DNA of 38,753 nucleotides from a bacterium. Lineage in GTDB: Bacteria > Vulcanimicrobiota > Vulcanimicrobiia > Vulcanimicrobiales > Vulcanimicrobiaceae. Both the position numbers and the translations under genes were made by a program. Numbering within the stretch: position 1 is the stretch's first letter; every line of letters starts with the position of its first letter. The notes below the pieces were generated by a model. It was given only the letters and a program-made list of their open reading frames with translations. It was not told where the DNA came from and did not search any database. Shown here one piece after another: positions 17,891-22,443 of the stretch. The stretch is taken from positions 1 through 38,753 of the forward strand of contig JAJZED010000019.1 in assembly GCA_021805775.1 (NCBI GenBank). The letters are read 5' to 3'.

Positions 17891-17919
17891 ACTATAGTCG
17901 TATAATATGACCACACCAA
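17891..17919 (-). promoter_or_regulatory. candidate rnpB promoter
   Basis: Read on the minus strand, TTGGTG (17919-17914) is followed by a 17-base spacer and TATAGT (17896-17891). Transcription would start near 17884, about 20 bases before the proposed P1 of rnpB. The site overlaps the start of the divergent antitoxin gene, so antitoxin and rnpB transcription could interfere. The plus strand of the same stretch also has TATAAT directly before the antitoxin ATG. Confidence 0.4.
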
Positions 17920-18203
17920 AAAACAGACGCGAAAACAGCCCCGTATCGCTCCTGCTGCTGGGCTCGCGCACGATCGGAGCCGCTGCGTTCAAATCGCGAT
18001 GCCTTGAAATCATGGATGAAGTCGAACGCTCCGGCCAGGAAGTGGTTATCACGAAACATCGAAGGGCGGTGGCGCGCCTGCTTCCGGCGCACTCTTTTCG
18101 TGGGTCGTTCTGCGGCGCTCTTCGCGGAAGGGTGATCGGCGCCGATGAGATCGTCGAACCGATCTCGACGGATTGGGAGAACGATGACACCCATTTTGCT
18201 TGA
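17907..18203 (+). CDS. Phd/YefM-family antitoxin
   Basis: The protein is 98 residues. The middle, GSRTIGAAAFKSRCLEIMDEVERSGQEVVITKHRRAVARLLP, is the typical Phd/YefM DNA-binding dimer domain, and the acidic C-terminus (DEIVEPISTDWENDD) would wrap the toxin. It neutralises the PIN toxin encoded next, which overlaps it by 20 bases, and normally represses its own promoter. The start is uncertain: ATG 17907 has TATAAT right before it and no ribosome binding site, and the first 20 residues are not family-like. A palindromic ACTATAGT just upstream (17891-17898) could be an operator. Confidence 0.88.
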   Translation: MTTPKNRRENSPVSLLLLGSRTIGAAAFKSRCLEIMDEVERSGQEVVITKHRRAVARLLPAHSFRGSFCGALRGRVIGADEIVEPISTDWENDDTHFA

Positions 18204-18594
18204 TACCCACGCTGCGGTATGGGCGACAAGCGGGAACCTCCGCCCTGCGATTCAACGAAGCGTGGACGCCGCGGCGCGCGAAGGGCGTCTCTTACTCTCA
18301 CCGATCTCGGCGTGGGAGATTGCGATGCTGGTCGTACGGGGACGCTTGAAGCTTTCGGTACCGGCCGATGCGTACGTGCGGGAATTGTTCGCTCTACCCG
18401 GCGTAGTGACGGCGCCCCTCTCGCCGGCGATCGCCGCGGAAGCGGCGCTCTTCGATCGCGCTCTGCATGCCGACCCTGCGGACCGTATCTTGGCAGCGAC
18501 CGCGATTGCTTACGGTGCGAGCTTGATGACGCGCGATCGGCGATTGCACGCCTTTGCGCGCGAGACGAAGAGCTTGCGCTGCATCGCTTGTTGA
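18184..18594 (+). CDS. vapC: VapC-family PIN-domain toxin
   Basis: The protein is 136 residues from ATG 18184, inside the end of the antitoxin gene. The PIN RNase site is complete: LLDTHAAVW (D7), SAWEIAM (E45), DPADRILAATA (D100) and MTRDRRL (D118). These acidic residues bind Mg ions, and VapC toxins cleave tRNA or rRNA at specific sites. Length and the Phd-type partner fit the common type II module. Downstream DNA is A-rich and has no gene on this strand. Confidence 0.92.
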   Translation: MTPILLDTHAAVWATSGNLRPAIQRSVDAAAREGRLLLSPISAWEIAMLVVRGRLKLSVPADAYVRELFALPGVVTAPLSPAIAAEAALFDRALHADPADRILAATAIAYGASLMTRDRRLHAFARETKSLRCIAC

Positions 18595-21057: not shown

Positions 21058-21134
21058 TGGTGGGCCATCCTGGTCTCGAACCAGGGACCTCATGCTTATC
21101 AAGCATGCGCTCTAACCAACTGAGCTAATGGCCC
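21058..21134 (-). tRNA. tRNA-Ile (anticodon GAU)
   Basis: A 77-base tRNA: acceptor GGGCCAT pairs with ATGGCCC, D-arm AGCTCAGTTGGTTAGAGC, anticodon stem CATGC/GCATG around TTGATAA giving anticodon GAT, T-arm with GGTTCGAGACC, discriminator A and an encoded CCA. It reads AUC and AUU. Confidence 0.97.
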
Positions 21135-21186: not shown

Positions 21187-21447
21187 TTAGATCATCGCGA
21201 TCCACTTTTTGAGGGTTTCGTCGGCGCTCTTGAGCTCGGCCATCAGCAGGCTTTGCAGGGCGTCGCTCTCGCGCATCTGCTCGGAGCGCACGGCGGTGAC
21301 TTGGTCGAACTGCTCGTGCATCGCCAGCAACGAGGCCTGGTCGAGCGCGGCTTGGTGTTCGGCAGCGATCGCGTCGGTCTCCAGCGTCGGGGCGGGCGCG
21401 GGAGCCGGCGTGCCGACTCCGCGCGCTTGGCTCGGCGCCGTCTTCAT
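21187..21447 (-). CDS. small helical protein, paralogue of the gene upstream
   Basis: The protein is 86 residues from ATG 21447. After a Pro/Ala-rich start (TPAPAPAPTLE) the rest is one long amphipathic helix: AEHQAALDQASLLAMHEQFDQVTAVRSEQMRESDALQ. It aligns with the C-terminal half of the upstream protein at 21444-21761 (D-x-x-TA-x-RSE-x-MRE ... L ... M ... K ... D ... KK-x-I), so the pair arose by duplication. The start overlaps the stop of that gene as ATGA, so translation is coupled. No signal peptide or family known to me. It is last in a three-gene operon with a muramidase, suggesting a role at or through the cell wall. Confidence 0.7.
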   Translation of the reverse strand: MKTAPSQARGVGTPAPAPAPTLETDAIAAEHQAALDQASLLAMHEQFDQVTAVRSEQMRESDALQSLLMAELKSADETLKKWIAMI

Positions 21448-21761
21448 GCCGAGATCGATTGGATGAACTTCTTGGTGATGGCGTTGTCGGCTTTAATCTG
21501 CTCCATCTCGACGTTGCGCAAGGTGTTGATCTCGCGCATGTTCTCCGAGCGCTCGGCGGTCGCCTCATCGAAGAGCGCCGACTGCATCGAGAGCTGCTCT
21601 TGATGCTGCATCTGCGAGGCGTAGAGGCCGAGCTGGAAGTTCTCGTCCCAGGAATTCATTGCGTTCATCGCCCCGTTTTGGGCGCCTCCGGCGAGCGCGG
21701 ATGCCCCCATCGAGAGCAGCGCCGGCGCGGCGGCTTCGGCGAGTGCGGGAAGAAAAGCCAC
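21444..21761 (-). CDS. small helical protein with hydrophobic N-terminus, paralogue of the gene downstream
   Basis: The protein is 105 residues from GTG 21761, with AAGGAG well placed upstream and overlapping the stop of the muramidase gene. The N-terminal 35 residues (MAFLPALAEAAAPALLSMGASALAGGAQ) are Ala-rich and hydrophobic, without a classic signal peptide. The C-terminal 60 residues are a heptad-like helix (QHQEQLSMQSALFDEATAERSENMREINTL) that matches the downstream protein. Methionine and glutamine are frequent. The size and helix content recall needle, rod or tail-type subunits of secretion machines or phage-like particles, but no homology can be claimed. Confidence 0.7.
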   Translation of the reverse strand: MAFLPALAEAAAPALLSMGASALAGGAQNGAMNAMNSWDENFQLGLYASQMQHQEQLSMQSALFDEATAERSENMREINTLRNVEMEQIKADNAITKKFIQSISA

Positions 21762-21772
21762 GATAGTTCTCC

Positions 21773-22384
21773 TTACGAAGTGGGGGTGCTGGCGTTGGAT
21801 TCGGCTGCGAGCTCGTCGAGCCAGGGCTGCTCGCCGTGGTTCGCCGTTGGGGGCGGAGCGAGCGGCCCCCCCGTGGGCGCTCCCAGAGGCGCTCCGTAAC
21901 TGCCGGTGCGAGCGGTCGCCTCGGGAAGCTCCGCGCGGGCATCTTCGATCTGCGCTTGGTGTCGGAGCACGGAGTCGGCGTACCCCAGCGTCTCGCCGTC
22001 GGCCCAGCGCGTCGTCGTGCCGCGCGCGGTCGGCGAGCCGGCATTATAGGCCGAGAGCGCGGCGCGTTCGTCTCCGCCGTAGCGTTCGAGCAGGCCGTGG
22101 AGCATCTCGGCCGCTCGCTCGGCGTTCTGGGCCGGGTCCATCGCGGCCGGGCTCCGGGCGAAGGCGTGGTAGCGGTCGTCGATCTGGAAGAGGCCATGCC
22201 CGTGTCCGCCGTCGCCGAGGATGTTGCGGCCGCCATTGCTCCCCGGCCCCCCGGTCTCTTGGGCGGCGACCGCAGCGAGCAGCGAGGGTGAGAGCCCGTT
22301 GCGGGCGGCGGCGCGGGCGATCGGAAGCGCGTAGGCGACGCCGTGGGCGGCGAGCGAGACGGCGGAAGCGGAGAGGGCGGTCAT
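21773..22384 (-). CDS. goose-lysozyme/SLT-like muramidase without classical signal peptide
   Basis: The protein is 203 residues from ATG 22384, preceded by GAGGAGGGG. The catalytic region has AAVAAQETGG with the acid Glu at about E43, then GDGGHGHGLFQIDDRYHAF (58-75), close to the goose-type lysozyme / lytic transglycosylase motif, and later ALSAYNAG. Such enzymes cut the glycan between MurNAc and GlcNAc. The N-terminus (MTALSASAVSLAAHGVAYA) is mildly hydrophobic but is no ordinary Sec signal, and the C-terminal 60 residues are Pro/Ala-rich and probably flexible. It heads a tight operon with two small helical paralogues and is divergent from the DUF177-rpmF operon. A dedicated wall-opening enzyme for an apparatus is an attractive inference. 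Confidence 0.85.
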   Translation of the reverse strand: MTALSASAVSLAAHGVAYALPIARAAARNGLSPSLLAAVAAQETGGPGSNGGRNILGDGGHGHGLFQIDDRYHAFARSPAAMDPAQNAERAAEMLHGLLERYGGDERAALSAYNAGSPTARGTTTRWADGETLGYADSVLRHQAQIEDARAELPEATARTGSYGAPLGAPTGGPLAPPPTANHGEQPWLDELAAESNASTPTS

Positions 22385-22414
22385 AGCACCCCTCCTCTGC
22401 GACGAGCGGCCGGT

Positions 22415-22443
22415 TTGACAAGAGCGCGGCCCACCTCTACAAT
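22415..22443 (+). promoter_or_regulatory. strong sigma70 promoter of the DUF177-rpmF-fab operon
   Basis: Perfect TTGACA at 22415-22420, a 17-base spacer and TACAAT at 22438-22443. The predicted start of transcription is near 22450. It lies between the divergent muramidase gene and the DUF177 gene and is the best promoter match I found. Confidence 0.85.

Follow-up and report, generated by a model that had tools for sequence, protein, structure and literature searches.

A lineage-specific operon of Candidatus Eremiobacterota links a predicted signal-less muramidase to two unannotated families of helical proteins

The 38,753-nucleotide stretch of DNA that was analysed here (the window) carries LT-A-B, a real, conserved and lineage-specific operon with two unannotated protein families, small proteins A and B, encoded beside a predicted wall-cutting enzyme, LT. 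The three genes lie on the minus strand, and the operon proposed in the initial annotation, with an 11-base gap followed by an ATGA overlap, was confirmed (Table 1). Homologues of A are spread over an entire class of these soil bacteria, and LT is its neighbour in most A-bearing genomes of one family.

Gene order, distribution and linkage of LT and A

Table 1. Features of the LT-A-B locus, with positions in the window
Feature	Position	Strand	Description
LT	22384..21773	minus	203 aa, predicted lytic transglycosylase / goose-lysozyme-type muramidase without signal
LT tail			C-terminal, Pro-rich, acidic, disordered; catalytic Glu of LT is residue 43
Small protein A	21761..21444	minus	GTG start, 105 aa
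Small protein B	21447..21187	minus	86 aa
LT-A spacer	21762..21772	minus	11 bases, from sequence
A/B overlap ATGA	21444..21447	minus	A stop and B start, from sequence
Shine-Dalgarno-like GAGGAGGGG	22389..22397	minus	ahead of LT, from sequence
Sigma70 promoter TTGACA-17-TACAAT	22415..22443	plus	belongs to divergent yceD-fab operon
tRNA-Ile(GAT)	21058..21134	minus	immediately downstream of B

Homologues of A were detected in 92 of 148 relatives, covering all three families of one Candidatus Eremiobacterota class. Among the same 148 genomes, A was not found in other classes of the phylum, save for a marginal match in G119 (9e-4). The named records that carry A are almost all from Candidatus Eremiobacterota, and a few have bin labels that are imprecise or odd. 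LT-A-B occupies a fixed chromosomal site in the home family (f1), divergent from the genes yceD-rpmF-fabH-fabD-fabG-acpP-ffh-rpsP. The sigma70 promoter of this yceD-fab operon is kept in relatives and marks the intergenic region common to both operons; it is the sole conserved promoter, and no shared alternative-sigma promoter was found. Positions 17907-18594 of the window resemble, by eye, a VapBC-like pair made up of a Phd-type antitoxin and a PIN-domain toxin.

It had been suggested to check whether the small proteins always occur together with the muramidase. This holds for much of the home family, where about 27 of 30 A-bearing genomes have an LT of this subfamily immediately upstream of A, and fails elsewhere: A-B is present at the fab site without LT in family f2 and in three home-family genomes (G014, G020 and G031), and family f3 carries A alone at a different site, near prfA. 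Occurrence of the small proteins without the muramidase, named in the initial annotation as an argument against its proposal, is thus borne out in part. Conversely, LT without A was found at a contig end (G030) and as the second LT copy of G024. In the preferred reading given below, A would be the old, class-wide core, B a duplicate of A and LT an accessory of the home family. Most apparent absences of A coincide with contig ends. Missing A in G013, G092, G097 and G030 is no evidence of loss, since the contigs end at the locus, and loss was also dismissed in G015, G074, G032 and G039, in which the assembled fab locus is missing. G093 is the sole apparent absence that looks like a real loss.

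A functional link between LT and A, already proposed from the operon, is strengthened by this adjacency and by gene fusion. At one locus (L160), LT and A overlap by ATGA. In G036, the LT domain reads in frame into A, and the LT tail and stop are gone. No other observation speaks as strongly for joint action of LT and A as this fusion, which comes from one genome bin and in which the start codon and Shine-Dalgarno sequence of A are retained. A is also under purifying selection, with dN of 0.03-0.09 against dS of 0.7-2.0 in pairs within one genus. A tandem copy of the locus was observed in G061 (contig C24; L120, 224-466), with an extra small gene combining an A-like N-terminus and an LT-tail-like acidic end, LMSSLIDGDDDSN.

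Gene A was also found to be a target for mobile elements. In G075 (L148, 1875-8880), an element of about 6.7 kb splits A after MTQRKA and encodes a large serine recombinase (Pfam Resolvase and Recombinase); the reading frame of this recombinase closes with the final codons of A itself (DDSITKKFIQSITE). In G108 (L150, 3214-4724), an A fragment lies directly against a similar recombinase, and in G110 (L149, 5188-5550) A is cut at the same place as in G075. The IMG/VR provirus contig L146 opens with host LT and A (1-908), and its 93% identity to G010 ends after TQRK; since host identity stops there at phage DNA, a phage appears to be integrated in gene A. The target genes of serine integrases are usually dispensable in growth, and A is therefore probably conditionally needed. 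Assemblies often break at the fab locus, as in G013, G092, G097 and G030; insertions in A or tandem copies may be the reason.

A wall enzyme without a Sec signal and two paralogous helical proteins

LT matches the Pfam SLT domain (PF01464) with an E value of 1.9e-10 and 40.7 bits, against a curated cut-off of 21.3. The domain is matched in 17 of 17 LT homologues, with E43 and the greater part of GDGGHGHGLFQID fully conserved among them, in agreement with the first description of LT as a muramidase. Its nearest solved structures, by PDB sequence search and by fold, are g-type lysozymes; these were the top PDB matches in a Foldseek search with the AF2 model (pLDDT 80.7), which comprises a confident domain and a disordered tail. 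No signal peptide was seen in any LT homologue. In many of them the catalytic domain starts no more than about 10 residues from the N-terminus, and none leaves room for a Sec signal, which bears out the claim that LT lacks one. Acidic character is common to LT tails. A conserved tail motif was significant in the discovery set (11 of 19 sequences, mean of 1.7 in shuffles) but was present, by eye, in about 2 of 12 further LTs, and was dropped. A second LT paralogue of 520 aa, also without a Sec signal and distant from A and B, was noticed in G024 (contig C56; L151, 6748-8310); it combines an N-terminal domain that is peptidase/amidase-like by eye with a C-terminal domain.

Small protein A consists of a Gly/Ala-rich, weakly hydrophobic N-terminal segment followed by a single long C-terminal helix, while B has a soluble Ala/Pro-rich N-terminus and a C-terminal helix as in A. 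The Kyte-Doolittle maximum of the A N-terminus over 19 residues is 0.7-1.7, mostly under the usual transmembrane threshold, and that of B does not exceed 1.0. AF2 places helices at residues 5-19 and 27-104 of A, with a mean pLDDT of just 62.6 (low confidence). The C-terminal helices of both proteins are amphipathic, with a peak mostly at 90-102 degrees in A, and they resemble each other along DEATAERSENMRE...KKFI in A and DQVTAVRSEQMRE...KKWI in B. Profile-profile comparison aligned A and B over 56 gapless columns at 34% identity (probability 99%, E=3.7e-18). A search with A alone recovered the adjacent B in about 20 genomes, and a tree separated A and B into two clades with support of 97/96. 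These comparisons identify A and B as true paralogues, with a similarity well in excess of what coiled coils show by chance, as expected from the earlier proposal of two duplicated helical subunits.

No convincing family match was obtained for A in Pfam, PDB or PHROG, or for B in Pfam or PDB. The PDB sequence search with B found nothing, and the best PDB sequence match of A, calicivirus VP2 (E=0.12), was judged to be due to chance. A Pfam match to WXG100, the type VII pair, was not found among A or B members. The statement in the initial annotation that no named system combines LT, A and B is upheld.

Candidate roles of the operon

We tentatively prefer, without considering it quite an even bet, a reading in which the C-terminal helix common to A and B lets them co-assemble close to the inner membrane, where they would transport or place LT so that the wall can be opened independently of Sec. 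This helix would join the two proteins into a helical bundle, with the N-terminus of A anchoring it at the inner membrane or inserting it there. LT would attach to the A-B assembly through the disordered acidic tail (in the G036 fusion, directly) and would thereby be brought to or across the membrane, where it could cut peptidoglycan locally and create a passage for the assembly or its cargo. The A-B assembly, its location and the activity of LT are inferred. In favor of this reading are the A/B paralogy, the LT-A linkage, the L160 overlap, the G036 fusion, the purifying selection on A, the invariant catalytic residues and missing signal peptide of LT, the acidic LT tails, the more hydrophobic N-terminus of A compared with B and the amphipathic C-terminal helices; the occurrence of A without LT in two families, the mostly sub-threshold hydrophobic segment of A, its low-confidence AF2 model and the confinement of the fusion to one bin, where A retains its start, speak against it.

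A holin/endolysin-like cassette for export or lysis, of the kind known from type 10 secretion, would also suit a signal-less LT adjoining a small protein whose Gly-rich N-terminus is hydrophobic. Small protein A would then make the membrane lesion, LT would be the endolysin, and B, a paralogue without the hydrophobic segment and in this respect antagonist-like, would be the soluble restraining partner. How signal-less proteins pass in a holin-dependent manner is the subject of a review (PMC9527704). We consider such a cassette improbable: A has no clear transmembrane segment and no holin family match, B gave just a 0.65 match to GTA_holin, and A lacks an adjacent LT in two families.

The idea of phage-like particles, also raised in the initial annotation, found no support. 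HK97 capsid genes, indicative of a gene-transfer agent or an HK97 prophage, were found in 0 of 60 relative genomes, as was the contractile phage tail sheath (PF04984). Relatives of A were found neither in IMG/VR viral contigs nor in phage records, and relatives of LT were not found in phage records; the single close LT in IMG/VR, on L146, is host DNA flanking the provirus. LT does match phage LT profiles, the best being phrog_342, ‘internal virion protein with endolysin domain’ (8.5e-15), and Foldseek relates it to PRD1 P7 (3.7e-4). Three A members weakly match Pfam T7_gp14, with a best E of 0.007 (0.008 in single members). These matches could point to a phage DNA-ejection module that has been domesticated, resembling T7 gp14/gp16 or those of tectiviruses, which we nevertheless regard as highly improbable, given the missing capsid, the absence of A from the viral sequences searched and a chromosomal locus that is fixed through the home family. 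Moreover, A as a T7 gp14 was rejected by hhalign against 11 gp14 sequences (probability 0.3%), and A matched no phage subunit family in PHROG.

The main rival to the preferred reading is flagellum-derived export. Besides a flagellar FlhA, the genome under study encodes a second, lower-scoring and class-wide FlhA in a filament-less flagellar-type cluster (contig C11: L043 13808-17803 and L044 492-8238; also L130, L134, L132 and L133). This cluster comprises FlgB, FlgC, FliE, FliF with a FliG-like tail, FliI, an SLT gene and a rod-like FlgF/G, as well as FliN, FliP, FliQ, FliR, FlhB and FlhA, followed by secDF; neither a hook nor a filament gene was noticed there. It is class-wide in Eremiobacterota and is also present in G017. 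The cultured Vulcanimicrobium alpinus is reported to carry type IV pili but neither flagella nor a flagellin gene (PMC9758169). Since A is as class-wide as the cluster, a link between the two is tempting: A, B and LT could be substrates of the export apparatus, with A and B as axial or needle-like subunits and LT as a FlgJ-like exported wall cutter. The rod genes of the cluster, the lack of Sec signals in all three proteins and the combination of a constant C-terminal helix with a variable N-terminus, which fits needle or rod subunits, are in line with this possibility.

Several results make us regard it as rather unlikely. LT-A-B sits outside the export locus, which has its own SLT gene. FliP and FlhA are both missing from two near-complete genomes, G033 (98% complete, 8 contigs) and G087 (96%), in which LT-A-B is nevertheless intact; strong purifying selection was seen in pairs within this genus. 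The losses of FliP and FlhA are probably recent, since sister species still have the cluster, so that they make the link between A and export somewhat less probable. In G033, gene A (L046, 9568-9945) carries Pro where the helix otherwise has a conserved Leu (NTPRDV), which may hint at relaxed constraint. The T3SS needle family PF09392 matched neither A nor B at E<=10, which leaves a C-terminal likeness of A to needle proteins, noted by eye, unsupported, and A is predicted, at low confidence, as a short helix plus one long helix, with no needle-type hairpin. Of the interpretation suggested at the outset, the operon, the two duplicated helical subunits, the signal-less enzyme and the LT-A link are supported. 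A dedicated secretion-system role is at best tentative, given the position outside the export locus, the separate SLT gene there and the two genomes without FliP and FlhA, and the proposed service to a secretion system or phage-like particle has partial support.

Returning to the preferred wall-opening reading, wall cutting cannot be the basic job of A, because A is fixed class-wide and occurs without LT in two families. It is conceivable, though we think it rather unlikely, that A and B make up a class-specific structure spanning the envelope that has not been described before, possibly the extracellular part of the filament-less flagellar-type export apparatus, to which LT was added as a dedicated wall enzyme in the home family. 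Both families, which carry no annotation, persist throughout one class of a widespread but little-studied phylum, and they are physically linked to a wall enzyme without a visible exit. Should they build an envelope structure, the route of a Sec-less muramidase to the wall would be accounted for, and an orphan flagellum-derived export apparatus might gain the outer part that it lacks. As the phylum includes a species in culture, Vulcanimicrobium alpinus (PMC9758169), the idea can be tested.

Comparison with known systems

Tandem small helical proteins with a conserved C-terminal helix, as seen in A and B, are found in the T3SS needle SctF and inner rod SctI, from which A and B differ in having no PF09392 match and, for A, no helical hairpin in the low-confidence AF2 prediction. 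Holin/endolysin (type 10) cassettes place a signal-less wall enzyme beside a small, partly hydrophobic protein, as in LT-A, but A is without clear transmembrane segments or a holin match and occurs without LT. The phage ejection proteins T7 gp14/gp16 and PRD1 P7/P14 likewise combine a lytic transglycosylase with a small protein that has a Gly-rich N-terminus and a helical remainder; in contrast, A is unrelated to gp14 in sequence, virion genes are missing, and the locus is vertical and fixed.

FlgJ and the T3SS-associated lytic transglycosylases are small SLT enzymes tied to a trans-envelope assembly, and FlgJ, like LT, has no Sec signal. LT differs from them in lying outside the export locus, which has a separate SLT gene, and in being retained where FliP and FlhA are lost. 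Closest to the enzyme itself are the SLT/GEWL-like lytic transglycosylases (PF01464), with which LT shares fold, catalytic Glu and Pfam match; LT is set apart from these by the lack of a Sec signal, a Pro-rich acidic tail and its place as a constant neighbour of A in the home family.
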